64,000 bases of DNA from Myxococcus guangdongensis (GTDB lineage: Bacteria > Myxococcota > Myxococcia > Myxococcales > Myxococcaceae). A program made the translations under genes and the position numbers. The number at the start of each line of letters is the position of its first letter. Within the stretch, counting starts at the first letter, position 1. Under the pieces are notes generated by a model that saw nothing but the letters and a program-made list of their open reading frames with translations, was not told the DNA's origin and made no database searches. The stretch spans positions 1 through 64,000 of the forward strand of contig NZ_JAJVKW010000009.1 of NCBI RefSeq assembly GCF_024198255.1. The letters run 5' to 3'. Below are positions 1,085 through 18,587 of this stretch, one piece after another.

Positions 1085-1376
1085 TCGCTCCTCGTTGCGC
1101 AAGAAGGCCCCCAACTCCTCGCCCTGTAGCCCCCGAGTTGCCGCCAGCACGCGCAGCTTCTCTTCCGGCATCCACTTCTTCGGCCCATCGGGCACGGTGG
1201 GCTCCTTCTCCTTGGGAGGCGGCGTCATCGCCGCCTCCCTGTTCGCCTCGCGCAACCACTGCGACAGCGTCGGTTGGGACTCCCACCTGCCGCGCCAGCG
1301 CTGCGGTGCTCACCGCGCCCGGGCCGACCATCTGCTTCACCAACTGCATCTTGAATGCATCCGCGTACGGCACCAC
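1085..1376 (-). pseudogene. IS3-type transposase OrfA remnant, frameshifted
   Basis: Reading leftward from a GTG at 1374-1376, the first segment (VVPYADAFKMQ, then GAVSTAALARQVGVP) is a transposase OrfA helix-turn-helix. The frame is then lost and resumes one base out as QPTLSQWLREANREA, MTPPPKEKEP and KWMPEEKLRVLAATRGLQGEELGAFLRNE. The break sits at the CCC run at 1282-1284, where one extra C restores the frame. Similarity ends after LRNE near 1090, and no OrfB follows, because the Imm11 gene begins there. It is a dead fragment of an IS3-like element. Its right boundary and inverted repeat are not obvious. Confidence 0.7.
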
Positions 1377-1460
1377 GCCCTGCCTGTTCTCGCCCCTCAA
1401 GGCGTCGTCAGCTCGGCATCTCCCCCGAGGCGACAACTTCCCTGACACAGGGGGATTCAT

Positions 1461-2342
1461 CTACGGACAGGTAATGAGCAACGACGTAAGGGCGGTGCAA
1501 GATGCCGTTGCGCTGTCGTTCTGCGCGTTGGGGTCTCCCGGGCTGCTCGCAACTCGCGTTGCCGTCGCAGTCAGCTGCCCCAGCGCCAGCAGCCCGTAGT
1601 TCGCGCGGAAGGTCTTGCTTGTGGAGGCTCCATTCGCAAGTGCGCCCACCGGGCAACTCACCTCACCAGTAGTTGCATCAAGAGTACAGTCTGTTGAAGT
1701 GATAGATGTCGCTGAGGCCGGGAGAGTTGTTGTCACTGTCGCGGATGACGCACCGTCGGGGCCATTGTTCGTCACTGTCAGGTTGTAGAGTACGTTTGCC
1801 CCCAGGAGTGGCGCCTGGGCAGTCAGTCCAACGGCCAAGTCAGCTTCGCCAGGGTAGACGGTATAGCTCATGAATGGCATGCGCTCGCTCGCGGCTGTCC
1901 CGCCTTTTTCCTGAATGACGAAGAGCGGCCGCGTAGAGGCACTTACCGGGCTCGAAAGTGGCAACACGGTGAAGAATGCCGTGACCACGCGAGTCTGATT
2001 TGCCGGGAGGTCTGGTGGGGCGACGACTGCTTGAAAGCTGTTTGAAGTGGAACTACAGGCTGATGCGGGTTCACACCGGTCGAGCGCCAGCAGTCCGGCC
2101 AGGGAGTATTCTACGCGCATCAAGGATACGTCTTGTACTCTCTGGTGAGCAAAGGTGTGGGTGAACACAACCGTCTGGCCCGAGTGGAACTCGTTGTCGT
2201 CTGCGTGAATGACCAGTTCACCCCTTGAGCTGGTGTTGTTGATCGGCTCGGCGAATGCGTCGCCGCTCACCCATGGCTCCGTGAGGCATGCGACTACAAT
2301 GCCCAGAACGCTCGAGGGCACGCTCTTTGTCTTGCCTTTCAT
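1461..2342 (-). CDS. Secreted DUF11-repeat protein
   Basis: 293 residues. The start at 2342 is supported by AAAAGGAGG six bases upstream; longer in-frame starts have no such site. Residues 1-30 form a signal peptide (KGKTK, then a hydrophobic core, cleaving near DAFA). Residues about 190-285 carry a DUF11-type Ig-like domain (ADLAVGLTAQ, YNLTVTNNGPDGASSATVTTTLP), a fold found in bacterial surface and secreted proteins. The preceding 150 residues are a beta-rich stretch with no family I recognise. No lipobox and no membrane anchor are visible. It is probably a periplasmic or extracellular structural protein. Confidence 0.7.
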   Translation of the reverse strand: MKGKTKSVPSSVLGIVVACLTEPWVSGDAFAEPINNTSSRGELVIHADDNEFHSGQTVVFTHTFAHQRVQDVSLMRVEYSLAGLLALDRCEPASACSSTSNSFQAVVAPPDLPANQTRVVTAFFTVLPLSSPVSASTRPLFVIQEKGGTAASERMPFMSYTVYPGEADLAVGLTAQAPLLGANVLYNLTVTNNGPDGASSATVTTTLPASATSITSTDCTLDATTGEVSCPVGALANGASTSKTFRANYGLLALGQLTATATRVASSPGDPNAQNDSATASCTALTSLLITCP

Positions 2343-2758
2343 GGACAGCCTCCTTTTGCCTGTCGCGTGATAGGCAGGAGGGCGAATGATTGGCAAGCCA
2401 CACATTCTGGATTGGCCATCAGTGAACAGCGGGCTTCCTGTGGAACCGCCGAGTTGCGCTTGAGTGTGTCCTGAATGGTTCGCTCGCGTAGACGCTCGAA
2501 TGCCACGCGGTGAAATCAACCCTGCAGGCTCGTGCCAGCTTGGTCACACTTCTCCATCGGCATGTCCTTCAGTTCGTCCGGAAGGTAGTCGACGAGAGGG
2601 CGCTTTCCGCACCCCATCCGCGGTGAGTCCACAGGTATCATGCTGAACACTCTCTTCCGACCTGGGATAGAGGTAGGCAAGTTTGCGGTGCTTTCTTGAA
2701 GCGAAGATCCTCGCCCCCCAATCCATCGCGCGGGTTTTATCTCCCGCCAGGAGTTTGC
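2343..2758. other. Intergenic stretch without a supported gene
   Basis: 416 bases between the divergent DUF11 gene and the VOC pseudogene. It contains the ribosome-binding site of the DUF11 gene (about 2348-2354). A minus-strand run of about 40 codons ending at 2516 (RPLVDYLPDELKDMPMEKCD) reads like protein, but it has no convincing start signal and may be a gene fragment. Nothing else stands out. Confidence 0.4.
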
Positions 2759-3223
2759 ATGACTGCGACCAAGGCAAAGTCCATTCCGGAAGGGTTCAAC
2801 AGCGTTGTGCCCTTTGTGCTGCTGAAGGACACCGCGAAGGCCGTCGAATTCTACAGAAAGGCGGTCTGCGTGGAGGTGCTGCGCCAATATCACACGTCGG
2901 ATGGAAGTGATGGCTATGGTGACCCGCAAATCGGAAATTCACGGGTCCGATTCGCGGATGCGTCGCCCGAAAGGAAGTAGGAACGCTGGAACTTCGCTGG
3001 CTGCACCCTCGTGCTGTGAATCTACGTTGATGATTTGAAGGCGTTCGAGGAACGGGCGCACAAGGCGGGGGCCATGCCAACGAGGCGTCAACATCAGCCC
3101 TGGGGCGATATGACGACCACGTATGAGGACCCTGAGGGTTATACGTGGATGATCTCGCAACACATGGAAGATGTGCCCGAAGGTCAGATCAGCAGCCGCG
3201 TATATCAGAATCGAAACTACTGA
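2759..3223 (+). pseudogene. VOC (glyoxalase/bleomycin-resistance fold) protein with two in-frame stops
   Basis: The ATG at 2759 has CAGGAG five bases upstream. The frame encodes a typical PhnB-like VOC start (SVVPFVLLKDTAKAVEFYRKA) and reaches TAG at 2978-2980. It continues in the same frame through NFAGCTLVL to TGA near 3017-3019, then resumes with IYVDDLKAFEERAHKAGA, and ends with TTTYEDPEGYTWMISQHMEDV at TAC-TGA 3221-3223. The total of about 154 residues equals a full VOC protein, so only nonsense changes separate it from an intact gene. No frameshift is needed. It is probably a recent pseudogene; a second, intact VOC gene lies at 60705-61100. Confidence 0.75.
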
Positions 3224-3463
3224 CGACGCTCGAGTCGCTCGGCACATCGCTCGCCGCGAGCTCAGCTGGGACGACGCGACTTCTCTGCTTCCGCTCGTCA
3301 CAAATGTGGGCGAGTGGAGTTACAGCGGTACGGGGCTCTCCATCACGGAACGTGCTCAGTTCCGTGCTTTCCTTGTCCTGCTGTGGGCGCCGGCACTGTC
3401 AGTTCGAGCTGAGGGAATCGTTCAGTGCCGACGCCGTTTTGACAGCCGGATGGACCCTTGAAT

Positions 3464-3958
3464 CTAGATGGGGCTCGTCATGTTGCTCTGCACGGCATTC
3501 TCCACCTCTCCTCCCGAGCATCGCTGGGCGGGTGGGATCTGCCTGAGGGCCAGGTTGAACCCTCCTGATGCCGTCCGCCCCACCAGGGTGACGTAGGCGG
3601 ACCAGGTCACACTCGGTGAGCCGGGGTACTCGGGGGTTTGGATCTGAAGGAGGCCATCCCATTCACGGGGGTGCGTAATGACGGAGCCATATCCGCTGAT
3701 GACGAACGCCGACCCAAAGACCGGAACGTTGGTGGCGACGATGCAGATGGCGGCGGGTGCCACCCTGATGGTTCCGTATGGCGTATTGAAGAGGTATCTG
3801 CCGTCTCCGGTAGGATACCCTGGGATGTCGCCTGATGGCTCGCCCATGGCGCTGACTTCATTCATGGGTGTGCTTTTGTCTTCGAGGACGAGGCTGTCCT
3901 CGCCCTGACCACAACCTGCGCACAGCATCACGACAAGAATCATGAGGAGCGTTCTCAT
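3464..3958 (-). CDS. Putative lipoprotein of unknown function
   Basis: 164 residues. The start at 3958 is chosen because GGAAGGAA lies just upstream and the N-terminus (MRTLLMILVVMLCAGC) is a lipoprotein signal with the lipid-attachment Cys at residue 16. The mature part is about 148 residues, rich in Gly, Pro and beta-prone segments (YLFNTPYGTIRVAPAAICIV, SAFVISGYGSVI), and has no motif I recognise. It is probably attached to the periplasmic or outer leaflet. It heads a run of exported proteins up to 10.9 kb, but each has its own gap and ribosome-binding site, so this does not look like an operon. Confidence 0.7.
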   Translation of the reverse strand: MRTLLMILVVMLCAGCGQGEDSLVLEDKSTPMNEVSAMGEPSGDIPGYPTGDGRYLFNTPYGTIRVAPAAICIVATNVPVFGSAFVISGYGSVITHPREWDGLLQIQTPEYPGSPSVTWSAYVTLVGRTASGGFNLALRQIPPAQRCSGGEVENAVQSNMTSPI

Positions 3959-4303
3959 AGTTCCTTCCGATGTTGACGTTGGGCAGCACCGGTAAGACAC
4001 CGCCGCATGAAAAGAGTTCCCGCGAATCTTCAATCGTCGCGGTGCTGTCCATTCCTGCGGTTTTCCCTTACGAGAGGGTGGCCCAGGCGCAGTGGTCAAG
4101 TCCCGAATCGTGTGGAGCAAGTGCTATCGGCCATTTGCGGCGAGATACCACAGCCCGATTGGGTGTGACAATGGGGGCGGACTCGGTGGGTGCTGTCTGT
4201 GTCTGCATTGCACGGCGATTGTAAATGCCGCTGCGATACAGAAAATATCCGTGGAGACGCCGCCTGCGGAGGTGGAGGTCCGCAGGCGGCGTCTCGTTCT
4301 ACC
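3959..4303. other. Intergenic region carrying a terminator
   Basis: 345 bases between two minus-strand lipoprotein genes. The right end holds the strong hairpin annotated separately (4254-4295). The rest presumably includes the promoter of the 3464-3958 gene. I see no gene in it. Confidence 0.5.
4254..4295 (-). terminator. Hairpin terminator with a perfect 17-bp stem
   Basis: Arms gagacgccgcctgcgga (4254-4270) and its exact complement (4279-4295) enclose an 8-base loop. It begins eight bases past the stop of the repeat lipoprotein gene transcribed from the right. On the minus strand the stem is followed by ggatattttc, a modest T-tract. Confidence 0.75.
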
Positions 4304-6139
4304 TCACCGGCGGCACAGGGTCCCGGCGGTGGTGTTGCCCGCGCAGCCACCGAAGTACTGGTTGGGGGTGTTCGCCCCAAGTCCACAGTTGCGCCAGTTG
4401 CAGGTGTTTCCTTCGGGGTCGTTCCCCGCGGCCGTGCAGACACGCATGGGCGTGTTCGCGCCGCAGTACGTCCCCGTCGTCGGTGACACCGAGCACGCCC
4501 CCGACCCAGAGCCGCTGTAGCGCAGGTCGTCGTCGGTCCAGTAGTGGTGCGAGGGAGCCGTGGCGCCCGGGCGTGTGGCCCAGGTGGCGGCGTTGCTGAC
4601 CGACCAGCCCGCCGCGCACAGCGAGCCCCGGTTGTTCCACGTCACCCGTCCCGCGCACCCCACGAGGTTGGCGGAGAAGACCTGCTCGACGGTGCCGTCA
4701 GCGCACCCCGACGCGGGCGCCGTCACCGGGACGCAGAGCGCACCCGACGTGTTCACGCAGCCGCCGAAGTACTGGTTGGGGGTGTTCGCACCGAGGCCGC
4801 AGTTGCCCCAGTTGCAGTTGTTGCCCTCGGAGTCCGTCCCCGCGGCCCTGCAGACGCCCATGGATTGGCCCTGGCCACACGCGTTTCCAGCCGTGGTGCT
4901 CACGGAACACGCGGAGGTGCCGGAGCCGCTGTAGCGCAGGTTGTCCTGCGTCCAGTAGTGATGCGTGGGGGCCGCGGTGCCTCGCAGGTTGACCCACTCG
5001 GCGGCGGTGGCGAGCCGGTAGCCCTGGGCGCACAGCGTGGCCCGATTGGCCCACGTCACCCCTCCCGCGCAACCCACCATGCCTCCCGAGAAGGTCTGCT
5101 CGGCGGAGCCGTCCTCACAGCCGGTGGGCGCTGCCCTGGGAACGCAGATCGTCCCCGCGGTGGTGTTGCCGGAGCAGCCGCCGAAGTACCGGTTGGGGGT
5201 GTTCGCTCCGAGGCCACAGTTGCGCCAGCCGCAGGTGTTTCCTTCGGGGTCGTTCCCCGCGGTCGGCGAGCAGACCCGCATGGGTGTGTTCGCGCCGCAG
5301 TACGTCCCCGCCGTCGTCGACACAGAGCACGCCCCCGACCCGGAGCCGCTGTAGCGCAGGTCGTCGTCGGTCCAGTAGTGGTGTGTCGGGGCGACCCCGT
5401 TGAGCAGCGTGCTCCACTCATTCGCGGTCGCGGGCCTGTGGTTCGCGCCGCAGAGCGAGGCCCGATTGTTCCACGTCACCCGTCCCGCGCAGCCCACCAT
5501 GCCGTTGGAGAAGGTCTGCTCGATGGTGCCGTCGGCGCACCCCGCGGTGGTGGGGGTCGCCGGGACACAGAGCGCGCCGGACGTGTTCACGCAGCCGCCG
5601 AAGAACTGGTTCGGGGTGTTCGCCCCCAGGCCACAGTTGCCCCAGTTGCAGTTGTTCCCCTCGGGGTCTCTGCCCTGGGCCGTGCAGACGCCCATGGATT
5701 GACCCTGGCCACACGCGGTGCCTGCGGTGGTGCTCACGGAACATGCGGAGGTGCCGGAGCCGCTGTAGCGCAGGGTGTCCTGGGTCCAGTAGTGGTGGGT
5801 GGGGGCCGTGGTGCCTCGCAGGCTGACCCACTCGGCGGCGGTGGCGAGCCGGTAGCCTTGGGCGCACAGTGTGGCCCGGTTGGCCCACGTCACCCTTCCC
5901 GAGCAACCCACCATGCCTCCCGAGAAGGTCTGCTCGGCGGAACCGTCCGCGCAGCCGGCGCCCACGAGGTCTTGGGACTCGAACGTCTCGGATTCCATCT
6001 GGAGTTCGGCTTCCTGTGTCGCTGCCTCGAACGCCCCGGGTTCTCCCTCGGTTTCGATGGGGGCGTTGCATGCGACGGACAGCAGCAGGGCGCCCAGCAG
6101 GAGATTCTTCCCAGAGTGCATGAATGCAGTGCGAATCAT
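4304..6139 (-). CDS. Lipoprotein of four tandem cysteine-rich repeats
   Basis: 611 residues. The start at 6139 has GAGGAG upstream, and the N-terminus (KNLLLGALLLSVAC) is a lipoprotein signal with Cys24. After a Glu-rich linker come four repeats of 133-140 residues beginning at C63, C201, C341 and C479. Each has ten Cys and the signatures CADG, VGC-GRVTW, HHYWT, LRYSGSG, ACSVS, NCGLGANTPN and FGGC. Repeats 1 and 3 share CGQGQSMGVC and YWTQD. Repeats 2 and 4 share CGANTPMRVC and YWTDDDLRYSGSGSGACSVS. This shows duplication of a two-domain unit. The function is unknown. The Trp/Gly/Cys-rich, disulphide-dense pattern suggests a binding module at the cell surface, but that is inference. Confidence 0.8.
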   Translation of the reverse strand: MIRTAFMHSGKNLLLGALLLSVACNAPIETEGEPGAFEAATQEAELQMESETFESQDLVGAGCADGSAEQTFSGGMVGCSGRVTWANRATLCAQGYRLATAAEWVSLRGTTAPTHHYWTQDTLRYSGSGTSACSVSTTAGTACGQGQSMGVCTAQGRDPEGNNCNWGNCGLGANTPNQFFGGCVNTSGALCVPATPTTAGCADGTIEQTFSNGMVGCAGRVTWNNRASLCGANHRPATANEWSTLLNGVAPTHHYWTDDDLRYSGSGSGACSVSTTAGTYCGANTPMRVCSPTAGNDPEGNTCGWRNCGLGANTPNRYFGGCSGNTTAGTICVPRAAPTGCEDGSAEQTFSGGMVGCAGGVTWANRATLCAQGYRLATAAEWVNLRGTAAPTHHYWTQDNLRYSGSGTSACSVSTTAGNACGQGQSMGVCRAAGTDSEGNNCNWGNCGLGANTPNQYFGGCVNTSGALCVPVTAPASGCADGTVEQVFSANLVGCAGRVTWNNRGSLCAAGWSVSNAATWATRPGATAPSHHYWTDDDLRYSGSGSGACSVSPTTGTYCGANTPMRVCTAAGNDPEGNTCNWRNCGLGANTPNQYFGGCAGNTTAGTLCRR

Positions 6140-6421
6140 AGACAGCGACTCCTCTACGCATCCCGCATGATGCGGGGCGCGCGAGGTCTGCCCTGTCGCC
6201 CGGCGAGAGGCCAGGGGATGGTTGCCACGTGTCGAACGGGCGATAGCGCATTCGTTCAACCCAGGCATCTGGCACGCACTACTATCGACAATCGAGACAT
6301 GCTGGCACTGCGGTGGCGTCAAATCCGACAGTCCAGGGGATTCACGACATGACAGTGCGCCGACGCGCGGGGCACCGTCCGCCCCGCATCCATGGCCGCA
6401 GTCCTCGTGAGTCGAGGGGCA

Positions 6422-6742
6422 CTACAGCTCAGCGAGTTCGGGCAGACACGCGGTGACTTCAGGGAGCGTCAGCCGACAGATTCCGACGAGGCACGCGGTG
6501 ACGTATTGGATGTCGGGCAAGCCGAGGATGCAATTGGTGACGCAGCGGGTGCCGTCCGGGTTTTCGTCGAAGATGCCCAGGCAATCGAAGAATCCGTTGA
6601 GGCTCTCGGCGGAGACCTCGCTGTCCTCACTCGTCGCGGGGGGCGTGGATACGTCGGTTTCGACCGTCGCGTCCACGGGGCCGCAGCCCACGAGACACGT
6701 CAGAAGCAGAACGGAAGCAGTCGCTCTCATCAGGTTCGGCAT
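6422..6742 (-). CDS. Small cysteine-containing lipoprotein
   Basis: 106 residues, starting at 6742 with GGAGGAATCAAC directly before ATG. The signal (MRATASVLLLTCLVGC) places the lipid-attached Cys at residue 20. The mature chain is acidic at first (ETDVSTPPATSEDSEVSAE), then has six Cys in a compact C-terminal domain (FDCLGIF, RCVTNCILGLPD, TACLVGICRL, TACLPEL), suggesting disulphides. No known family is recognised. It sits alone between two larger exported proteins. Confidence 0.7.
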   Translation of the reverse strand: MPNLMRATASVLLLTCLVGCGPVDATVETDVSTPPATSEDSEVSAESLNGFFDCLGIFDENPDGTRCVTNCILGLPDIQYVTACLVGICRLTLPEVTACLPELAEL

Positions 6743-6943
6743 GTTGATTCCTCCGAGTGTGTTGCACCGGAAATCGTCTCCGACTCGAGGAGGATGAGCC
6801 ATTCTGCTTGGGTTCAATTCCGATGTTGGGGTGTCATCAGTGCAGCTCGCCCGCAGCGCTCGATGGGGAGGTGCGGGCACACTCTTGCTCGTCGATGCGG
6901 CGGCGCGCCTCCCGCTGGAACCAGGAGGCGCGCCGCCGAAGAC

Positions 6944-9343
6944 TCAGTACACCACCACCGAGCCGTAGACGCTGGTGCCGCTCGTGTAGGCCACCAGCGC
7001 GCCGCCGTTCGACGGGAGCGCCGCGACGGCTGGCACGGAGCCCGGTCCGATAGTCCTGGCGTCCGTGGGCTGAATCACCGTGGCCCCCACGAGCATCCGG
7101 TCCAACTGGATGTTGCCCGTCCCTCGCTGCGTGACGATGTAGCCGTTGCCGAGCGCGTCCGCGTCAATCGAACGCACGGGGCCGGGCGGGACGTCATTGG
7201 GGAGCCCCGTCACCTGGGTGCTCGTGCCCGGCGCGGACACCGGGATGACGTCCACGTTGTCGTCCCCGAAGGTGCCCGTGACGTAGATGAAGCCGTTGGA
7301 GCCCGTCCAGTCCGAGAAGAACGCCTGTCCCGGCGGAGAACTCTGCGGACCGAAGCTCGTCCCCTGGTCACTGCTCCGACGGATGCGGAACAACGGGTCG
7401 TCGCTCACCGAGAAGACATCTCCGCTGATCTTGTCCACGAGGACGTCGAAGTAGGCATTGCTCTGGTCCACGTCCGTCACGCTGAAGTCGCCCGCGCCAC
7501 GCGCGAAGTTGCGCAGGACGCGCACCCCCGCGCCACCTCGCGAGACGGAGATGTAGAGCGCGTCGCCCCTGGAATCCAGGCTGACGGTGGGGTTGCTCGC
7601 GTTGCTGAGCGTTCGCGGCGCCTCCCAGTTGGCTCCCGCGTCCACGGTCCGCGTGAACAGCAGCGAACCCGCGCTCGTGACCGCGACGTAGGCAATCCCC
7701 GTGGGGCCACCCTCGATGGCGACCTCCGCCGCGTTCGTGATGCCCATCGGCGTGGGCCCCACCCAGGTGAAGCCGCGGTCCGCGCTCACGCTGACATGGA
7801 CCGAGCCCCCGCAGAGCATGACCACATAGAAGCGCCCCAGCGCATCCACCGCGGCCTTGCGGCCCGTGTTCGAATTGGCCGTGGTGCAGTTCAACGTCCC
7901 GCTGATGAGCGTGGGCGGGATGTTCGAGAAGGCATCCAACTGGCACTCGGCATCACAGCCATCCCCCGGCGTCGTGCCGCCATCATCGCACTGCTCTCCC
8001 GCCGCGCTGTCGACCAGGCCGTCACCACACACCTCCACGCCCTGGCAGTCCGCTCGACACCCGTCTCCGGCGACGCGGTTGCCGTCGTCACACACCTCAC
8101 CGGAGTCGACGAAGCCGTCACCACAGACCGGCGGCCCTCGGACGGTGAGGCTGACCGTGGCCGTGTTCGAGGGCAGCGCGCCATCGTTGGCCGTGAAGGT
8201 GAACGAGTCCGCCCCCTGGAAGTCCGCGTTCGGCGTGTAGAGCAACTGGGCGCCCGTCCCGGACAGGGTTCCGTTCGCGGGCGGCGCCGTCACCGTGAAG
8301 CCAACCACATCTCCGTCCACGTCCGTCGCCACCAATGTGATCGGCGTCGATGTGTTGTGGTTCACCGTCACCGTCGCGGAGGCCGCCACGGGCGCGTCGT
8401 TGACCGGCGTCACCGTGACGGTGACGGTGGCGGTGGCCTGCTTCCTGCCATCGGAGACGGTGACCTGGAAGGTGTCGGTCCCGTTGAAGTTCGCGTTCGG
8501 CGTGTACGTCACCGACGCCCCCGTGCCCGTGAGCGCGCCATGGGCGGGCAGGGTGAACGTGTAGGTCAGCGTGTCGCCGTCCGGGTCCGCCGCGGGGATG
8601 GTGATGTTCACCGCGGTGTCCTCGGCGGTGATCGTCTGGACCGCCTCGACGGTGGGCGCCCGGTTGTTGTCGCAGACGCTCGGCTGTCCCGTGCAGGTGT
8701 AGCCCGGCTCCACCTCGCAGACGCTGTTGCAGCCGTCTCCCGAGCGCTGATTGCCGTCGTCACAGAGTTCGGGCCCGCCCAGCACCCCGTCTCCACAGAT
8801 GACTCGCAGGGAGGTCTCCACCGCGTCCACCAGATACACGGCGAGCGCCCCCCTCAGCCGTACGTAGCGATAGGGCACGTTCCCTGGGTACATCGCCACC
8901 GCGATGTGCGTCCCCAGGCCCAACTCGACCAGTTGCAAGGGGCTGGAGCCGACGAACGTCCCGTCTGCCTTCAAGAAGTCCACCTGCGCCACCAGCGCCA
9001 GCGACAGGCCCTGGTAATAGACGCGCAAATCCCCGGTGCCTTCCTCGCCCTGACCCAAATCCAGCACCAGCGCCGCGTTGAGCAGTCCCAGAAGGGCCGC
9101 CGTCCTCCCGTCTGGAGCTCCGAGCGCCGCGCTCGCGTTGAGCACCGCCGCGTTGGTTCCGGGGGCCACCGCGTCCGCATAGGGGTCCCACGCCAGCGCG
9201 GCTCGGAGTCGCTCACTCGCCACGTCGCCCTCACGAGCGGGGCGGTCCGACTCCTCCTGCGGGGCGCCACCGCACGCCCCCAGCGCCAGGACCAGCGGCA
9301 CGGACAGAATCCAGGACGACAGAACACCAGGACGACCAATCAT
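6944..9343 (-). CDS. Large lipoprotein with DUF4215, Ig-like and BNR-like regions
   Basis: 799 residues. The start at 9343 has GGGGGAGA upstream, and the lipobox ALGAC is near residue 24. Order seen: a helical/beta N-terminal region to about 180; a myxobacterial cysteine-rich DUF4215 unit ([16 protein letters not shown]); two cadherin/Big_9-like beta repeats ([40 protein letters not shown]) over about 230-420; two more DUF4215 units ([34 protein letters not shown]); and a 300-residue C-terminal part resembling sialidase/BNR beta-propeller blades ([33 protein letters not shown]). By composition it is a surface adhesion or carbohydrate-binding protein. No catalytic sialidase residues can be confirmed. 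Confidence 0.75.
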
Positions 9344-9531
9344 CGAGTGTCTCCCCCCGAGGAGCTGGATGAAGCCCGGAATGGACTGTTCCCCCTCATG
9401 GATTGAACGGCACCACTCCTGGCGCCCGACAGCTCGCAACGCAATCCACAGTTCGACAACGTCCATTGCGCATCAATCGACAGGCCCTGGAGGCCGTGGA
9501 TATGACAGGATGCGTCGAGGTTTCGTCGCTC

Positions 9532-10236
9532 TCAGGAGTTGGTGATGATGATGGGCCGGAACCTATAGTCGGGCCGAACGACGAGTGGGTCGTTGCTCAG
9601 CGTGATGTTCGTCCGATATTGCAGCCCTGCCTCGATGAGCGGAAGCGTGAGCCTCATGGTCAGCTTCACCGGGTCCTGGACCTGTGGGCAGAAGTCATCG
9701 AAGTATGTGGCATTCCTGCCCGTCAACTCCCACGACAGCGTTCTCTTGTCGGCCGAGAGGATGATGCTGTTCCAGAACTGCAGCATTCGCGCTGAGAGCA
9801 CATTCCCGTCCGTGACGTCACAGCCAGCGCCTACGTTGGTGAGTGCCAGTCTGATGAACCCCGCATCGGGTCGCGGGATGCCGCGGCTCAGGTCATCACG
9901 GAGTTGGGTGATGTAGCTGTCATCGAAGACATGGCTGCTGAGGATGGAGATCGAACCCTTGAGTGGAATGCTGACCGCGCCAGTATTCCCGGTCAGTCGA
10001 TAATCGCAGTTCGCGACGGAAGGTTGGTTCACGCAGACCGAGATGAGGTTGTCACCGAATTCCACATCGCGTGGCGCCACGACGACTGGCGAGCCCATGA
10101 GCGGGGCGGCGAGAACGAGCTCTCCAGGGGCGCCATCCTGCTCGGAGCCTCGGGCCTCCGGCGCGCCTTCCACGAGGAGACCCAGAATCGTTCCCGCTAT
10201 CGCACCGCTCATCCCCAGACGACGTCGCGTTCGCAT
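9532..10236 (-). CDS. Secreted protein of unknown function
   Basis: 234 residues. The start at 10236 has AGGAGGG nine bases upstream; the region further upstream in the same frame looks non-coding. MRTRRRLGMSGAIAGTILGLLVEGAPEARG is an export signal with an Arg-rich head. The mature protein is beta-rich with about five Cys (SVCVNQPSVANCDYRL, GAGCDVTDGN, FDDFCPQVQDP) and has no family I recognise. It is likely periplasmic or secreted. Confidence 0.65.
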   Translation of the reverse strand: MRTRRRLGMSGAIAGTILGLLVEGAPEARGSEQDGAPGELVLAAPLMGSPVVVAPRDVEFGDNLISVCVNQPSVANCDYRLTGNTGAVSIPLKGSISILSSHVFDDSYITQLRDDLSRGIPRPDAGFIRLALTNVGAGCDVTDGNVLSARMLQFWNSIILSADKRTLSWELTGRNATYFDDFCPQVQDPVKLTMRLTLPLIEAGLQYRTNITLSNDPLVVRPDYRFRPIIITNS

Positions 10237-10530
10237 CAAGGTGGACCCTCCTGGCTTGAAGACGCCACCCGGAGGAAAACCATGCAGAGATTTCGTGTTC
10301 CGCACCTGGCGAAATCTTGCCGCCTGGCTGCCTTGATGCCCTCGTGTGGATGATGCCGGCACGGCCCGGGGCTGACGCGTCAAACCCTGCCTTTGACATG
10401 TCAATGCGTGTCGCCTGGGCTCCCGTCGCACGCTGGCCCGCTGGGGCCTTGCTTCTTCGTCATCGCTGGGTGTGGGGCTTGCAGTGCGGACTCCCGCCCG
10501 ATTTCCACGGGCTTCGACCGGAGATGACCG

Positions 10531-10911
10531 ATGATGCCTCGCGGAGTCTTGACGTGCCTCGCGCTGGGGAGCTGTCTGCTGATGTCTGGCGCGGAGGCCC
10601 AGACGCCTTCCTCCCAGGTTCCCACGAACGCGTGTTACCTGTGGAAGGGACGTGGGGGGAGTCCCACGCAAAGCTACATGGCGACCTACGCGAGCTGCCG
10701 GCCCTGGAATCGCAACCACGGGTGGAGCTTCATCCGGACGGCGAATGGGGTGGACTACCATCGCGGGACCTTCGAGGGGGCCGCGGCCACTCCTTCGATC
10801 TGGGCCGTCTACGCGGACTTCGGCTCCGCGGTCCTCACCTCCCGGGCGGACTACGACGCCTTCATCGCCAACACCCGGCTGGGCGGCTCCTGCGCGGAGT
10901 GCCTTCAGTAA
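10531..10911 (+). CDS. Small secreted protein of unknown function
   Basis: 126 residues, ATG at 10531 with GGAG about eight bases upstream. Residues 1-23 are a clear signal peptide (LTCLALGSCLLMSGAEAQ). The mature part is aromatic-rich and Cys-containing (NACYLWKGRG, YASCRPWNRNHGWSFIRT, GGSCAECLQ), with the last Cys pair almost at the end. No domain is recognised. It is divergent from the 9532-10236 gene across 294 bases in which I see no gene. Confidence 0.65.
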   Translation: MMPRGVLTCLALGSCLLMSGAEAQTPSSQVPTNACYLWKGRGGSPTQSYMATYASCRPWNRNHGWSFIRTANGVDYHRGTFEGAAATPSIWAVYADFGSAVLTSRADYDAFIANTRLGGSCAECLQ

Positions 10912-11007
10912 CAGCAGGGGCCCCGGTGTCGGCTGGGGCCACCCCGAACGACAACCTTCGAGATGGGGTGCTCGGGCTCCTCGCGCCTCATCTGGACAGG
11001 CTGTCCG

Positions 11008-12765
11008 TCACCGCAGCGGTGTCTCCAGGAAGGCGGGCCGGAAGTCGGTGATCTGTCCGCCGCCCACGAGGAAGCGGCTTCCCGCGGCGGGGCGGTCGTC
11101 ATCGAGCACGTACCCGAAGTCGAGCCGGAACGGGATGATGTTGAACTGGGGGACCAGCACCCGCACGCCCAGGCCCACGGAGTGCACCATGCTCGGCTTG
11201 CGCTCGAATGCGCTCCCCGCGTCGTAGAAGAGCACGCCGCCCAGATGCAGCGTTCGGATGATGAGCGGTGCGGTGCGGTACTCCACGTTGACGAGCAGCA
11301 GGCGCCTCCCCGCGTAGGCATCCACCTTCGCGCCTCGCAGGCCGTTTCCACCACCGAGCAGCACCACCCGCTCGACCAGGTCGTCGATGTTCACGTCCAC
11401 GAGGCCCCGCGCGACGAAGCGCCCCCCCAGGACGCGCGGCGAGACCTGGTGCAGCTCCGCGGCCCAGCGCCGATGGGTCCAACCCGCGCGGTCGTCGAAC
11501 TGCCGCCGGAGCGACGCGGCCGCCGCCACCGTGGTGAGCGCGTCTCCCACGCGGACCCGATAGCGCGCGCTCAGCCCTCCTTCCGTGAAGTGCGCGCCGG
11601 AGGGGATGGCCGGAGGCGCGTAGCGCAGGGTGAGTGACACGGAGTGGCCGACCTGGAAGTCCTCGGAGAGCGAATACGTCTCCACGTCGCGCAGCACCTC
11701 GTACCGCGCACTCCAGGCTCGCAGCGTCGCCGTGGTGTAGCCCGCGTCCTCCGAGCGCGGCAGGTAGTGCCGCTCGAACCAGGCGCGCTGTCCCGCGTCG
11801 AGCGGGGCCGCCACCGGGGGCGCATAGGCCTTGCGGTACGCGCCCACGCCTCCGCCAAGCTCCCACCTGGATTCCTCGCCCCAGGCGCGCACGTAGAGCA
11901 CGCTGCCGGTCATCTCGCGCGTGTTGAAGACGTAGGGCACCGGCTCCCCATCGGGATACGGCAGTCGCCAGACGTCCGCCCCCCGGAAGGTGCGCGAGGT
12001 CTCCACGTTCCACGCCACCTGCGCCGTGAGACTCCAGGGCGTGGACAGCGAATACAGGGGCCGGCTGAGCGTGACGCCGCCCCGGGAGCCCTCGGCCCTG
12101 CCGCTCTCTCGGCCGATGATGACCGCCGCGGACTCCGTCAGCGTCCACCGGCTGCCGAGCACCTGCTTGTCCACGTAGCTCTGGCCGACCGACCAGGTGT
12201 CCAGGTTCAGGATGTAATCGAGCGCCACCTTCTTCGCGAGGCCGAGGAAGTTGTCTTCGGTGACCTGGAGCCGCAGGTACTGCAACAGCGAGCCGACCGC
12301 CGAGAAGTCGTTGTTGAGCCGCAGCGACCACACGTCCTTGGTGATGACGAGCAGCGACACGGTGTCCGGCCTGGTGCCTCGCACGGGCGCCACCCGCACC
12401 GCGGAGAAGATGCCCAGGCGCCGCAGGTTGCGCGCCGTCTCCTCCGCGAGGACCGTCTGATAGGGCTGTCCGGGCGTCAGCAACACCTCACGCCGGACCA
12501 CCTCCTCGCGTGTGCGCGCGTGCGCCAGGTTGAGGAAGTTCGGATAGGGGTCGCTCTTGGCGACGACGTCCTCGCGGGCCACCCAGACCTGCTCGAGCGT
12601 CTTGCCCTCCGGCTGCGCCTCGCGCGTCAGGCCCTGGCTCTCGAGGCCCCACTGGACGAGTACGTCCTCGTAGCTCTCCTGCGCGGGCTCTTGCGGTGTC
12701 GAGGACAATGAAGCGACGAGAAGACCCAGCCACGGGAAGGACACACGCCCATCCTGGTCCGTCAC
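11008..12765 (-). CDS. Omp85/BamA-TamA-type outer-membrane beta-barrel protein
   Basis: 585 residues, GTG start at 12765. A short signal-like segment (FPWLGLLVASLSS) is followed by a POTRA-like region at about 85-140 (VVRREVLLTPGQPYQTVL, ARNLRRLGIFSAVRVAPVRG), the typical beta-alpha-alpha-beta-beta outline. The rest is alternating beta-strands to a C-terminus with GNGLRGAKVDAYAG, VEYRTAP, LHLGGVLFYDAGSAF and PFRLDFGYVLDD, which match the bacterial surface antigen (Omp85) barrel, including a G-LRG element. Only one POTRA is evident, so it is shorter than BamA (about 800 residues). It is probably a transporter or patatin-type-partner barrel rather than the essential BamA. Confidence 0.75.
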   Translation of the reverse strand: MTDQDGRVSFPWLGLLVASLSSTPQEPAQESYEDVLVQWGLESQGLTREAQPEGKTLEQVWVAREDVVAKSDPYPNFLNLAHARTREEVVRREVLLTPGQPYQTVLAEETARNLRRLGIFSAVRVAPVRGTRPDTVSLLVITKDVWSLRLNNDFSAVGSLLQYLRLQVTEDNFLGLAKKVALDYILNLDTWSVGQSYVDKQVLGSRWTLTESAAVIIGRESGRAEGSRGGVTLSRPLYSLSTPWSLTAQVAWNVETSRTFRGADVWRLPYPDGEPVPYVFNTREMTGSVLYVRAWGEESRWELGGGVGAYRKAYAPPVAAPLDAGQRAWFERHYLPRSEDAGYTTATLRAWSARYEVLRDVETYSLSEDFQVGHSVSLTLRYAPPAIPSGAHFTEGGLSARYRVRVGDALTTVAAAASLRRQFDDRAGWTHRRWAAELHQVSPRVLGGRFVARGLVDVNIDDLVERVVLLGGGNGLRGAKVDAYAGRRLLLVNVEYRTAPLIIRTLHLGGVLFYDAGSAFERKPSMVHSVGLGVRVLVPQFNIIPFRLDFGYVLDDDRPAAGSRFLVGGGQITDFRPAFLETPLR

Positions 12766-13211
12766 CCTTGCATCGCGATGTCACAAGCAGACGACATCAC
12801 GGCACGACTCCTGTCGATGGCGTCTTTGCTGTTCTCGCCGCTGCGCCTCTCCCCGAGCCTCGCGCTCGCGTCCATCGAGAGCCCCGTTGCCGTCGACGAG
12901 CCCCTCCGCGCCTGGCCCCGAGCGCCTCGCCTCAGGCCTCAGAGCCGTCCTCCGAGTCAGGGGTGCTCGAGGTGCTGCACACGAGTGCCCGTATCGCGGT
13001 GGAACTCGGCGCCATGTCATTGACCGCCGTGGAGGTATCTCATGCGGCCAACAGCGCTGCGCCAGTCCCGTCGGACGTCCAGGTGCAGCCGTTGGGGGAG
13101 GGCTGCACACGCAGCCCGCACCTGAGGAACGGCTCCCTCGGGACTCCCATTTGATCTGGTCTTTCCCGGCTCGCCCATGGCATCGTGGACGGTCCCACGT
13201 GGAGGTGCCAG
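12766..13211. other. Divergent intergenic region
   Basis: 446 bases between the Omp85-type gene and the DUF1592 gene, which are transcribed away from each other. It should contain both promoters. I see no supported gene, RNA or strong repeat. GGAGG at 13201-13205 is the ribosome-binding site of the DUF1592 gene. Confidence 0.5.
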
Positions 13212-14963
13212 GTGAAACGACTTCGACTCGCACGCACCCTCGTCATGGTCGCGGCGACCTTGCTGAGTGCTTGCAAGGGTGACGTAACCCTGCCGCCCTC
13301 CCAGCCGCCGCCCCCCGGTGAGCCCCCGCCGCCGCTGGTGCCCGAGGAGCTGCCCTTGCGGCGGCTGTCCGCCGTCCAATTCCAGAACACGGTGCGCGAC
13401 GTGCTCACCCGCGCGCTCGGCGCCCCGGAGGCGGACGCGGTGCTGCAGGACGGCGCGGTGGCGTCGCAGCTCCAGAGCTACCCACGGGACCTGCGAGTCT
13501 CCATCCCCGGCGAGTCCCACGGCGGCTTCTTCCGCATGGACCAGGGCGTGCAGCAGGGGCACATCGACATCGCGTACTCGCTCGGTCTGCGCGTCGGCGA
13601 GCTGCTCGGGAGCAACACGTCGCGGCGAGGGCTGCTGCTGGGCTCCTGCGCCACGGATGCCAGCGCGGCCAATGACGAGGCCTGCCTGGTCGACTTCATC
13701 TCCCGCTTCGGGCGCCTGGCCCTGCGGAGGCCCCTGGACGCGGACGACGTGGCCTTCTACCGCGAGGCCGTGAGCGAGCCTCCTGTCTCGCCCCTCGCCG
13801 TGCAGAAGGTGGTGGCGCTGCTGCTGACGGCGCCCGAGTTCCTCTACTTCGTCGAGCACGGCCAGTCCGACGCGGCCGGCACCGTGACGCGGCTGACGGC
13901 GCACGAGCTGGCCGCGCGGCTGTCGTATCACTTCTGGCAGACCCTCCCGGACGAACTGCTCACCGAGGCCGCGGACTCGGGGGCCCTGCTCACCGACGCC
14001 GGCTATCGCCAGCAGGTCGAGCGCCTCATGGGGGACGCACGCGCCCACCAGGCCCTGGGCGAGTTCTTCAGCCAGTGGTTCCGCCTGGACGACCTCGAGG
14101 AGTTCGACAGGCGCGTGGGAGACCCCATCTTCGACGCGTTTCGCGGTGACTTCACCCCGACGCGCGACACCCGCGAGCGCATCAACGGCGAAGTGGCCGA
14201 CCTCGTCGCCTGGCTGGTCTCTCACGAAGGCACGCTGCAGGACGTGCTCACCGACCGGCATGCCTTCGCCCGCAGCGCCGACCTGGCGGCGCTCTACGGC
14301 GTGCCGAGATGGGATGGCACCTCGCAGCCTCCCACCTTCTCCGAGCCCCAGCGCTCCGGCCTGCTGACGCGCATCGCCTTCCTCGCCACCGGCTCCGCCA
14401 ACACCCGCCCCATCATCAAGGGCTACCGCATCCGCAACGCGCTCCTGTGCGGGAGCATCCCCCCACCGCCCGCCGACGCCATGATGACGCGGGTGGAGCT
14501 GTCGCCCGAGCTCACCACCCGCGAGGTCGTGGAGCGCCTGACCGAGACGCAGGGGTCCTGCCCCTCATGCCACCGCACCCGCCTCAATCCCCTGGGGTTC
14601 GTCACCGAGAACTTCGATGCGCTGGGCCGCTTCCGCTCCACGCAGCGCCTCTTCGACAACACGGGCCAACAAGTGGGCGAACGACCGGTGCGCACCGACA
14701 CGGTGCCCGCCGTGGTTCCGGGCGACACGCGCTCGGTGTCCTCGGCGGCGGAGGTCACCCAGCTCATCCTCGACAGCGGCCAGTACGAGGAGTGCTTCGC
14801 TCGACAGTACTTCCGCTACACCTTCGCCCGGCCCGAGAACGACGCCTCCGACGAGCCCGTCCTGGAGGCCTTGCGCACGGCGGCCAGGAGCCGTCAGTCG
14901 CTGCGCACCGTGCTGGCCTCCGTCGCGCTGCGCCCCGAGTTCCAGCGGAAGGACTTCCGATGA
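13212..14963 (+). CDS. DUF1592-family lipoprotein with a CxxCH haem-binding motif
   Basis: 583 residues. The GTG start at 13212 has GGAGG six bases upstream. The signal ends in a lipobox (LLSAC), followed by a Pro-rich linker (PPSQPPPPGEPPPP). The body matches the DUF1587/1595/1592/1588/1585 series known from planctomycetes and myxobacteria: LRRLSAVQFQNTVRDVL at the start, FGRLALRRPLDADDVAFY, HELAARLSYHFWQTLPDELL, and a C-terminal SCPSCH (Cys450, Cys453, His454) with NPLGFVTENFDALGRFR. CxxCH indicates covalent haem c attachment by family knowledge. The protein overlaps the downstream DUF1552 gene by ATGA, so the two are translationally coupled. It is probably a periplasmic redox protein; its substrate is unknown. 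Confidence 0.85.
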   Translation: MKRLRLARTLVMVAATLLSACKGDVTLPPSQPPPPGEPPPPLVPEELPLRRLSAVQFQNTVRDVLTRALGAPEADAVLQDGAVASQLQSYPRDLRVSIPGESHGGFFRMDQGVQQGHIDIAYSLGLRVGELLGSNTSRRGLLLGSCATDASAANDEACLVDFISRFGRLALRRPLDADDVAFYREAVSEPPVSPLAVQKVVALLLTAPEFLYFVEHGQSDAAGTVTRLTAHELAARLSYHFWQTLPDELLTEAADSGALLTDAGYRQQVERLMGDARAHQALGEFFSQWFRLDDLEEFDRRVGDPIFDAFRGDFTPTRDTRERINGEVADLVAWLVSHEGTLQDVLTDRHAFARSADLAALYGVPRWDGTSQPPTFSEPQRSGLLTRIAFLATGSANTRPIIKGYRIRNALLCGSIPPPPADAMMTRVELSPELTTREVVERLTETQGSCPSCHRTRLNPLGFVTENFDALGRFRSTQRLFDNTGQQVGERPVRTDTVPAVVPGDTRSVSSAAEVTQLILDSGQYEECFARQYFRYTFARPENDASDEPVLEALRTAARSRQSLRTVLASVALRPEFQRKDFR

Positions 14964-16492
14964 GCACGCCCATCTCGCGCCGAACGATTCTCCGCCTGGG
15001 CGGGACGGGGCTCGTCCTTCCCTTCCTCCCCAGCCTCCTGCCCGCGACGGCCCGCGCCCAGTCCGCGCCGTCCCACAAGTGCTTCGTCATGCTGCGCACG
15101 GAGCACGGCGGCATCCTCCAGCGGGACATGTTCCCCGCGGACGCCACGCTGACGGAGTCCTTGTCCTACGCGGGCCATCCCGTGCGCCGGGGCGCGCTGA
15201 GTGCCACCGTGACGGGAGGCGAGGCGCGGGTGTCGCCCGTGCTGCGCGCTCCGTCGAGCGAGCTCACCGCGTCGATGGTGAGCAAGCTGTGGGTGCTCAA
15301 CGGCCTGGACATCCCGTTCTACATCGGCCACCACCGGGGCGGGACGCTCGGCAACTTCTCCGCGAGCGACCAGGCGCCGGACGTCGTGAAGCAGGAGGGC
15401 ATCCGGCAGACCGTCGACCAGATCATGGCCTGGTCTCCGTCCTTCTACGGAAACGCGGCGGGCGTGCGCGAGCGCGTCATCATCCAGGGGTCGCTCTCCT
15501 ACGCGCACTCGGACCCTCGGCTGCGGCAGGGACCGGTGGAGCGGGTGGGGGACACCGTGAATGGCTCCAACCAGGACCTCTTCGACCGCCTGTTCGCGGA
15601 TGTCACCGGAGGCCAGCCGCTCATGAGCGGCGCGGTGCTGGAGAACTACCGACGCCTGCGCAATGGGAACCGGCGCCTGTCGTCCGCGGACCGCCGCCGG
15701 CTGGATGACCACATGGAGCGGCTGGCCGAACTGGACCGCAAGCTGTCCACGGTGGCGCGCTGTCAGACTCCCACGCGCCCAGCGACGTCGACCGGGCAGT
15801 ACACCCAGCAGCCGTCGTACGGACGCGACCCGGAGGCGCAGTCCCTGTCGCACGAACTCTGGAACGACGTGTACACGCTGGCGCTGTCGTGTGGCGTGTC
15901 GCGCATCGTGGTGGCCGGCGCGACGGAGACCTTCAGCACCTACGCGGGCGACTGGCACCAGGAGATTGCCCACCAGGCTGCGAGCAGCGAGCCGGCGTAC
16001 AGCACACTGCTCGCGGCGCACCACCTCTTCTTCCGCCGCGTCTTCCTGGACCTGGCGAGCAAGCTGGAGGCGGTGGACATGGGCGACGGCACCCGGCTGC
16101 TGGACCACACCCTGCTGGCCTGGGGACAGGAGTCAGGCAACTACACCCACGACCACACCAGCGCGCCGATTGTCGCCTTCGGCGGCGCGGAGGGCTTCTT
16201 CCGCACGGGGCAGTACTGCGACTACCGGAACCTGGACAAGAAGACCGGGATGGGCCCCGCCGGCGAGCCCCGCTGGTTCGGCCTGCTGTGGCACCAGTGG
16301 CTGGGCACGGTGCTGCAATCCATGGGCATCCCTCGCTCCGAGTGGGAGGACACTTCGCGGTGCCCGGGCTACCCCGACTACAAATACGACGACATCCCGG
16401 GTTGGGCCGGGCCCGAGAACTCCACGGGCCCCGTGTATCCCAGCTCCGTCTGGAGCGCCGCGGGCGAGGTGTTGCCCTTCCTGCGTGCGTGA
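14960..16492 (+). CDS. DUF1552-family Tat-exported protein
   Basis: 510 residues, starting in an ATGA overlap with the DUF1592 gene. The N-terminus SRRTILRLGGTGLVLPFL, cleaving after TARA, is a twin-arginine signal, suggesting export in folded form. The body shows DUF1552 features (LWVLNGLDIPF, HHRGG near the start, GDWHQEIAHQ, LLDHTLLAWGQESG followed by NYTHDHTSAPIVAFGGA), a family related to DUF1501 and alkaline-phosphatase-like folds. These two families are nearly always encoded together. No function has been settled for the pair as far as I know. The spacing of the conserved His residues is consistent with a metal site, which is inference. Confidence 0.85.
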   Translation: MSTPISRRTILRLGGTGLVLPFLPSLLPATARAQSAPSHKCFVMLRTEHGGILQRDMFPADATLTESLSYAGHPVRRGALSATVTGGEARVSPVLRAPSSELTASMVSKLWVLNGLDIPFYIGHHRGGTLGNFSASDQAPDVVKQEGIRQTVDQIMAWSPSFYGNAAGVRERVIIQGSLSYAHSDPRLRQGPVERVGDTVNGSNQDLFDRLFADVTGGQPLMSGAVLENYRRLRNGNRRLSSADRRRLDDHMERLAELDRKLSTVARCQTPTRPATSTGQYTQQPSYGRDPEAQSLSHELWNDVYTLALSCGVSRIVVAGATETFSTYAGDWHQEIAHQAASSEPAYSTLLAAHHLFFRRVFLDLASKLEAVDMGDGTRLLDHTLLAWGQESGNYTHDHTSAPIVAFGGAEGFFRTGQYCDYRNLDKKTGMGPAGEPRWFGLLWHQWLGTVLQSMGIPRSEWEDTSRCPGYPDYKYDDIPGWAGPENSTGPVYPSSVWSAAGEVLPFLRA

Positions 16493-16619
16493 GCCTTCGC
16501 CCGGCGATGGCGTTCCGAGCACGAATTCATTCGGAGCGCCGCCGTGGCTCGGGTCTATCCTCCCTGAGGGAGGCGGACGACCGTAGAGGGCTACGGTGGT
16601 GTCCTCCGGAGGAGCGTTC

Positions 16620-18032
16620 ATGCAAGGTCGTTCGGGAGCGAGCCTGGTGTTCGGCGTCATCCTCGGTGTCCTGCTCGTGGCGGGGCCCGCGCTGGCGCAG
16701 GGCTCCCTGCGGGATCGCATCGACGCGTTCGTCCAGGCGGAGCAGAAGCGCCAGGGCGTGGTGGGGCTCGCGGTGGGGGTGGTGCACCAGGGCCGCGTCG
16801 TGCTCGTGAAGGGGTACGGCTCCGCCGACCTGGAGCATCGCGTCCCCGTGGGGACGGACACGCTCTTCCAGTCAGGCTCGGTGGGGAAGATGTTCACCGC
16901 GATGGCGGTGATGGCGCAGGTGGAGGCGGGCAAGGTGTCGTTGTCGGACCCCATCTCGAAGCACTTCCCGGACGCCCCCGCGGCCTGGGCGCCCATCACC
17001 GTGCGCCACCTGTTGACGCACACGTCCGGCCTCCAGGACCTGGAGGGGAAGATCGACGAGCGGAAGGACTACACGGACGAGGAGTTCGCCCGGTTCCTCT
17101 ACACGCTGCCGCTGGAGTTCCCGGCGGGCCTGCGCTTCAGCTACAGCAACTCCGGCTACGTGCTGCTGGGCCTGCTGGTGAATCGCATCACGGGCACGTC
17201 GTATGTCGACGTCCTGGACGCGAAGGTCTTCAAGCCCGCGGGCATGAAGACGGCGCGAGGCATCAGCGAGGCCGACATCATCCCCAACCGCTCGTCCGGC
17301 TATCAATTGGTGAAGGGCGCGCCGAAGCACCACACCTGGGTGTCTCCGTCGCTCAACACGACGGGAGATGGGGCGCTCTATTTCTCGGTGAAGGACATGC
17401 TGGCGTGGGACACGGCCGTGCGGAAGCACGCGCTGCTGAGCGAGGAGAGCTGGCGTGAAATCCTCTCACCGGTGCGGCTCAACAGCGGCGCCACGCATCC
17501 CTACGGTTTTGGCTGGCAGCTCCAGGAGCGCAACGGCAAGCCGCTGCACCAGCACGGAGGCGCGTGGCAGGGCTTCCGCGCCAACTACTCCCACTTCGTG
17601 GGCGACTCACTGTCCATCATCGTGCTGGCGAACACGGCGCAGTCCAGCCCCGGGCGGTTCACCGAGGGCATCGCTGCCATCGTCAATCCGGCGCTCGGCA
17701 CGCCGAAGCTTGCCGCCATCGAGGACACCGAGCCGCAGGTCACCGCCCAGCTCACGGCGTTCCTCGAGGAGGTGAGGGCGGGGAAGGTGGACAAGGCCCG
17801 CTTCGCCTACGCGCCGCCCTGGCTCGTCTCGGAGGCGCTGCCGCACTTCACGGAGCGCCTGTCGAAGCTGGGGCCCACGGGGAAGTTGCGGCTCGCCCAG
17901 CGCGAGGTGATGGGGGATGACCGCGTGTACACGTACCTGGTGGACTTCGGCGCCGACAGCTTCGTGTACAAGGTGTCGCTCATCCCGGATGGCCGTGTGT
18001 CCCTCTTCGGCATGAACGAGCTGAAGAAGTAG
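16620..18032 (+). CDS. Serine beta-lactamase-fold hydrolase (class C / PBP4* type)
   Basis: 470 residues. The ATG at 16620 is preceded by GGAGGAG, and residues 1-27 are a signal peptide (GVLLVAGPALAQ). The beta-lactamase family PF00144 motifs are present: SxxK as Ser87-Val-Gly-Lys90, YSN in FSYSNSGYVLLG, and HGG in LHQHGGAWQGF replacing KTG. Members act as D-aminopeptidases, esterases or penicillin-binding-like enzymes in the periplasm; true resistance activity is not implied. A C-terminal extension of about 110 residues (from about 360) has a DUF3471-like beta layout. It stands alone between the DUF1552 gene and a convergent small gene. Confidence 0.85.
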   Translation: MQGRSGASLVFGVILGVLLVAGPALAQGSLRDRIDAFVQAEQKRQGVVGLAVGVVHQGRVVLVKGYGSADLEHRVPVGTDTLFQSGSVGKMFTAMAVMAQVEAGKVSLSDPISKHFPDAPAAWAPITVRHLLTHTSGLQDLEGKIDERKDYTDEEFARFLYTLPLEFPAGLRFSYSNSGYVLLGLLVNRITGTSYVDVLDAKVFKPAGMKTARGISEADIIPNRSSGYQLVKGAPKHHTWVSPSLNTTGDGALYFSVKDMLAWDTAVRKHALLSEESWREILSPVRLNSGATHPYGFGWQLQERNGKPLHQHGGAWQGFRANYSHFVGDSLSIIVLANTAQSSPGRFTEGIAAIVNPALGTPKLAAIEDTEPQVTAQLTAFLEEVRAGKVDKARFAYAPPWLVSEALPHFTERLSKLGPTGKLRLAQREVMGDDRVYTYLVDFGADSFVYKVSLIPDGRVSLFGMNELKK

Positions 18033-18044
18033 CGCGGAGTCGGC

Positions 18045-18425: not shown

Positions 18426-18587
18426 CGGTGGGGACCTGTGAGGGTTCAGGGGGCGGGACGGGTAGGAGCGCAGCTTACCGCGTGGGCGACGCTGTATGTC
18501 GTTCGAGACCCGCTCCCCGGTCTCGACAGGTCAGGCCATGCTAGGGAGGCGTGGAGGGTTGTGGCCTGCTCCTGACCGCGAGGTCCC

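Follow-up and report, generated by a model that had tools for sequence, protein, structure and literature searches.

The window, the whole stretch of 64,000 nucleotides of Myxococcus guangdongensis DNA analysed here, carries a gene for a lipoprotein with four tandem ten-cysteine repeats (R1 to R4), of which R1 is an extra copy of one of the three repeat types (D1, D2 and D3) present in related proteins. Judged from trees and site patterns, R1/R3 is the only recent pair among those in the window, and it is very improbable that the alternating similarity of the repeats goes back to duplication of a two-repeat unit, the history that an earlier note on this DNA had proposed. As to the nature of the repeats, our preferred reading, to which we give a probability of roughly one half, is that this is a lipoprotein of the outer membrane or matrix in which three or four disulfide-locked, divergent C-type-lectin-like domains, nearest to the Fib_succ_major family, would form a multivalent binder.

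Table 1. Features of the lipoprotein gene and its edges in the window.
Feature	Coordinates	Strand	Description and basis
Four-repeat lipoprotein gene	4304..6139	(-)	611 aa; ATG 6139, stop TGA 4304-4306
Shine-Dalgarno-like GAGGAG	6149..6154	(-)	9 nt 5' of lipoprotein ATG; by inspection
Lipoprotein signal peptide	6068..6139	(-)	end LLSVAC, lipidated Cys24 (+2 Asn, +7 Thr); recognised by eye
Acidic N-terminal linker	5957..6067	(-)	from lipid anchor to repeat 1; sequence
Repeat R1	5543..5956	(-)	138 aa, extra D2-type copy; identities, trees
Repeat R2	5123..5542	(-)	140 aa, D1-type, patches common to R4; identities, trees, site patterns
Repeat R3	4709..5122	(-)	138 aa, D2-type; identities, trees
Repeat R4	4307..4708	(-)	134 aa, D3-type, terminal; identities, trees
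17-bp hairpin, terminator-like	4254..4295	(-)	weak U stretch; starts 8 nt past stop codon; computed fold

The extent that the earlier note had given for the gene was exact (Table 1), and to this we add the strand, which it had left out. Its description of the product as a lipoprotein is borne out by an N-terminal signal recognised by eye, in which LLSVAC is followed by N; by inspection of the translation, the lipobox with its Cys is MIRTAFMHSGKNLLLGALLLSVAC, and all nine relatives looked at have VAC, TAC or GAC, then N, at this place. The protein ends in LCRR and has 41 cysteines, namely Cys24 of the lipobox and 40 in the repeats, each of which holds ten in identical order and with near-fixed spacing (positions 2, 18, 31, 72, 82, 91, 103/104, 108/109, 122/123 and 130/132/133 within the repeat). 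The signatures NCGLGANTPN and FGGC, reported before, are present in all four repeats. The repeats can be aligned end to end, and in each of the five genome pairs computed for concatenated D1-D3 dN is lower than dS (0.017/0.313, 0.017/0.336, 0.035/0.193, 0.049/0.449 and 0.134/0.384), so that they are not a product of chance; the orthologous repeats are under purifying selection.

With a profile of 33 rows (E up to 0.001), the repeat family was found in 15 of 195 Myxococcota genomes, distributed as 9 of the 27 of the same genus, two of another genus of the family, three of another family of the order and one elsewhere in the phylum. It should be kept in mind that 11 of these 15 had supplied rows to the profile (G115 being counted through L002, Citreicoccus inhibens) and thus match by construction, while G116, G082, G083 and G188 are the carriers newly found by it; one of the two carriers in the other genus has the same protein as C. 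inhibens. When a broader profile was used at E up to 1, the best E-values of the same 15 genomes were below 1e-36 and the next genome followed at 0.03, which indicates that the family is sharply bounded at that sensitivity. The domain of this lipoprotein is rare in Myxococcota. A scan of genome contigs with the full protein as query matched only Citreicoccus, no relative was found in plasmids and phages with R3 alone as query, none was found in the IMG/VR viral contigs, and no title in the open-access literature searched describes this repeat family.

The tandem lipoprotein is present in 11 of the 15 carriers, with three repeats (D1-D2-D3) in nine of them and four in two, the window genome and G016; the comparison with relatives thus agrees with the previous suggestion that the number of repeats can change. 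In the other four carriers there is a single distant copy within a larger protein, which in L024 lies beside DUF1565 and in L027 follows Flg_new_2/Flg_new repeats. In P0002 (from L026) the copy is flanked by a sub-threshold Flg_new_2 on one side and DUF1565 on the other, and in L025 it closes a repeat protein that has no Pfam match. The copies at L024:1501-1983 and L027:1498-1950 are longer (161 and 151 aa) and have 14 Cys each, and some of the additional ones are located in an insertion that separates Cys 72 from Cys 82.

If only the window is considered, the closest pairs are R1/R3 (identity 87.7% in protein and 89.4% in DNA) and R2/R4 (76.1% and 80.6%), as had been noticed before, against 62.9-66.4% in protein and 70.1-72.7% in DNA for the remaining four pairs. 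This is the pattern on which the duplication of an A-B pair was based, and it changes its meaning when the three-repeat relatives are taken into account, as R2 then corresponds to their first repeat (D1), R3 to D2 and R4 to the terminal D3. In the main tree, made of 35 repeats from 11 lipoproteins (G116 included) together with three distant copies, the 11 D1 repeats, R2 among them, were found on one side of a branch with support of 81/95, and the same was true of the 11 D3 repeats, R4 among them, with a weak 66/77; in an earlier tree of 32 repeats from 10 proteins, with G116 left out, the grouping of R4 with the D3 repeats had support of 100/99. A clade of R2 and R4, when forced, was rejected (delta lnL 41, AU p 0.008).

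The identity of R2 and R4 is also patchy at the DNA level, being 44% and 67% at alignment positions 90-180 and 90-93% at 180-360; at positions 45-90 it is 91%, and the other pairs also reach 80-91% there. In site quartets composed of R2 and R4 of the window with D1 and D3 of either G016 or G010, the sites consistent with orthology outnumbered those uniting R2 with R4 (38 vs 19 and 34 vs 20, respectively). The latter formed a cluster, in codon columns 68-115 in one case and 60-114 in the other (p 0.002 and 0.0004 by permutation), with a minor further group at columns 19-28. Such clusters are signs of exchange, and the recombination between copies envisaged in the earlier note is therefore supported. 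In comparison with the relatives, R2 is nearer to D3 than to D1 at columns 52-98 and not so at columns 98-118, and thus R4 was likely the donor for a part of the common patch only.

R1 and R3 were placed together inside D2 (support 100/98 in the 35-repeat tree). The D2 rows without R1 did not make one clade in the best tree, which is to be expected if R1 arose from D2, and constraining them together was not rejected (p 0.146). The extra first repeat of G016 is a mosaic that resembles D1 at columns 0-24 and 75-98 and D2 at columns 24-52, and is undecided or slightly D3-like elsewhere; it is found at the base of D2 in the trees, and its placement as a sister of R1 was rejected (p 0.0003, in a test picked after the tree was seen). 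The simplest account would be that an N-terminal copy was gained and subsequently converted from D2, completely in the window genome and partially in G016. Alternatively, two independent gains may have occurred, or a repeat may have been lost in the other species, or, as a variant of the A-B history, the D1-D2 pair may have been duplicated to give five repeats, of which the first was then lost. Within-protein identities alone would in this case have led to the wrong duplication history.

G016, with four repeats, and G010, with three, have a common flank of 8.3 kb on one side (91%), which means that, at a single locus, related species have different numbers of repeats. Flanks are also shared by G013 and G007 and by Citreicoccus and G116, and the window and G025 loci stand alone in their surroundings. 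No operon partner was found when ORFs of at least 90 codons from window positions 1-22000 (the gene itself and its edges aside) were compared with seven loci, with the exception of one 32% match in L002/L082. G003 resembles the window over much of 6900-20390, as well as at 604-1090, at 71-95% and in a partly rearranged form; the 19.9-kb stretch used for this comparison holds no counterpart of window 1090-6900, and G003 was found to lack the lipoprotein gene. These comparisons indicate that the lipoprotein gene is accessory and lies within a variable segment, in surroundings that differ between carriers.

Several other observations were made in this neighbourhood. Between G003 and the window, the order of the blocks 6900-9464 (87%) and 13136-16506 (95%), which adjoin the variable segment, is changed. 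About 55 bp at window 1400-1455, which drew most of the matches of one search, recur at many sites in the genus; several of these sites are 70-130 bases from a contig start, a position that would suit the end of an insertion element. A DUF11-domain ORF (1464-2519, minus strand) lies downstream of the lipoprotein gene. At 6947-9466 (minus strand) there is a gene for a large protein in which Big_9, cadherin-like and three DUF4215 stretches were recognised; 15 of the other 26 genomes in the genus match most or nearly all of this DNA at 82-87%. The product of 11011-12765 (minus strand) is a protein of the Omp85 superfamily with a POTRA match, possibly an outer-membrane pore.

On one hand, the unequal number of repeats beside a common flank, the mosaic repeats in both four-repeat proteins and the patchy presence in the genus (9 of 27 genomes) might suggest that the lipoprotein serves in variable recognition, with shuffling of its repeats as the means by which specificity towards kin, phage or prey is altered between strains. 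On the other hand, the repeats are under purifying selection overall, no conserved partner gene was seen beside the lipoprotein gene in the loci compared, and the within-class variation, despite peaks at columns 20-30 and 40-50, is spread across the repeat. We thus find this explanation rather unlikely.

No Pfam or NCBIfam model exceeded its cut-off for the lipoprotein, and in this sense the previous remark that the signatures of the repeat could not be assigned still holds. What can be added is a distant and partial relation to Fib_succ_major (PF09603), a C-type-lectin-like family. In the Pfam search the whole protein scored 15.2 bits with this model, whose cut-off is 33.9; among 33 single repeats, three had a match with E no higher than 1 (the best being 0.034). 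This similarity lies at the same place as the profile-profile match. For the latter, four Myxococcota Fib_succ_major domains were used out of five loci, L047 being dropped as partial and under the cut-off, and for Lectin_C 30 loci supplied 26 segments, chosen by motif. The hhalign score of the repeat family was 26.6 over 38 columns with Fib_succ_major, a value reached by none of 200 column-shuffled nulls (maximum 19.7; reversed 12.4), and 20.3 with Lectin_C, where one of 200 nulls was higher (reversed 15.9); the hhalign probabilities were low, 14% and 4%. As the Fib_succ_major score lies above every null, we consider the core C..GG.xW / CxxGW.xPTxxEW recognisable in the repeats (aligned as C..GG.xW....CxxGW/YxxxTxxEW), though incompletely, since the window repeats do not retain the His-x-Pro of the Fib_succ_major GWHxP. 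MRVC/MGVC of the repeats resembles the C-terminal SVRC strand of that family, a part that hhalign left unaligned. The two also differ in that the Fib_succ_major profile has 187 positions, while the window repeats have 134-140 aa with ten Cys and stand in a tandem array.

The relation to typical C-type lectins is more remote. EPN/QPD and WND are the calcium-sugar motifs of these proteins, and neither was seen in the translation of the lipoprotein; Lectin_C (PF00059) was absent from the Pfam listing at E up to 10, and its profile score was not clearly above the nulls. The likeness consists of a weak N-terminal match, W..x...C..G..L, and of the structural matches listed for the R3 model (below). 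PDB sequence searches returned chance-level matches only. Other candidates were judged to be chance: Tcp10_C recurs in 3 of 33 single repeats, but its match in the whole protein (E 0.00029; 20.9 bits, the cut-off being 36) spans 13 residues, and the matches to S_tail_recep_bd, Recombinase, TGF_beta_GS and PHROG families (best E of the last 0.0068) are short or weak.

Structure prediction of a single repeat, which the earlier note had named as a check, gave a divided answer. The AlphaFold model of R3, from a 7-row alignment, has a mean pLDDT of 49.5, with residues 1-47 and 126-135 as its better parts, and a topology that starts beta-beta-alpha-beta-alpha and ends in a C-terminal strand. In VIA-align, 24 of 36 realigned chains had Z of at least 2, and the listed 18 entries, which we take to be C-type-lectin-like structures, had Z of 2.1-3.0 from residue 9 to 132-138, values that can be trivial. 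Foldseek gave no match with E < 3 in the PDB for this model, and in BFVD the best match (E 4.0) was unrelated and a C-type lectin protein was fourth (E 8.6). The R4 model (pLDDT 45.6) did not reproduce the R3-model fold, and VIA-align, which had one chain to realign with it, gave no match.

In C-type lectins, disulfides connect helix 1 with the last strand, and loop with loop before the last strand. Cys 38 and 131 are present in all four distant copies and absent in 11 of 11 aligned lipoprotein repeats, and this co-variation suggests that the end of helix 1 is near the last strand. One distant copy, P0002, lacks both Cys 108 and Cys 122, and thus a 108-122 bond is probable; it is also without Cys82, for which there is no single clear partner. 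These co-varying pairs would fit the C-type-lectin plan, and we infer five disulfides per domain.

It is also possible, if less likely, that the repeat has a small disulfide-scaffold fold of its own, not related to C-type lectins, and makes a rigid stalk or coat instead of a binder. The lack of any Pfam, NCBIfam or PDB family at cut-off or with a convincing E-value would agree with this, as would the low confidence of the better model and the different result for the second one, and in PMC3325183 a stalk was proposed for the Cys-rich repeats of TraA. However, the Fib_succ_major match beats all nulls, the matches listed for the R3 model are all of one fold, the domain is also found singly in larger proteins, and the Tyr-Trp, Gly-Asn and Trp positions are invariant in 14 aligned rows, a conservation that seems to go beyond the requirements of a stalk. 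TraA itself, a myxobacterial surface protein with tandem Cys-rich repeats (PMC3325183), differs in several respects: the window protein is lipid-anchored, its end LCRR is unlike MYXO-CTERM, PA14 is absent from its Pfam listing, and the TraA repeat TIGR04201 is absent from its NCBIfam listing at E up to 10, in which only TIGR02171, sub-threshold, appears. On balance, we thus lean towards a lectin-like domain, which is probably a new and rare branch of a known superfamily.

According to PMC3222651, Lys is at position +2 in 8 of 12 identified inner-membrane lipoproteins of M. xanthus, those of the matrix show a tendency towards Ala at +7, and those of the outer membrane have no conserved residue. 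In the window protein and all nine relatives looked at, the +2 residue is Asn and never Lys; at +7 the window protein has Thr, and four of these nine relatives have Ala. By these residues, the outer membrane or the matrix is the expected location.

In our preferred reading, that of a surface-exposed multivalent binder, the lipid anchor would display, at the outer membrane or in the extracellular matrix, an array of three or four small domains. Each of these would belong, in a diverged and shortened form, to the C-type-lectin-like superfamily, with Fib_succ_major as its nearest family. Avidity would be gained by such an array, which we picture as an adhesin or receptor; its putative ligand, either a glycan or a protein, may be carried by the cell's own matrix, by neighbours, by prey or by a substrate. 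The lectin-like fold, the surface location and the ligand binding are thus all parts that we infer. Myxococcus haemagglutinin belongs to the OAA-type lectins, whose beta-barrel is not known to contain disulfides and whose repeats, of about 66 aa, set them apart from the window protein. These lectins likewise have tandem copies of a binding domain, the number of which varies among members (PMC8166773). Proteins diversified by retroelements include some with Fib_succ_major domains, among them a predicted lipoprotein (PMC4159848). One could go further and suppose that the repeat founds an undescribed C-type-lectin-like family in Myxococcota, that D1, D2 and D3 bind different ligands, and that copy gain and gene conversion alter valency and specificity between close species, a doubtful proposal at this stage.

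The lipoprotein offers a small and clear case of the growth and partial homogenisation of a repeat array by copy exchange. If the fold assignment is true, the surface proteins known from social and predatory bacteria would include a further lectin-like family, one that is uncurated.
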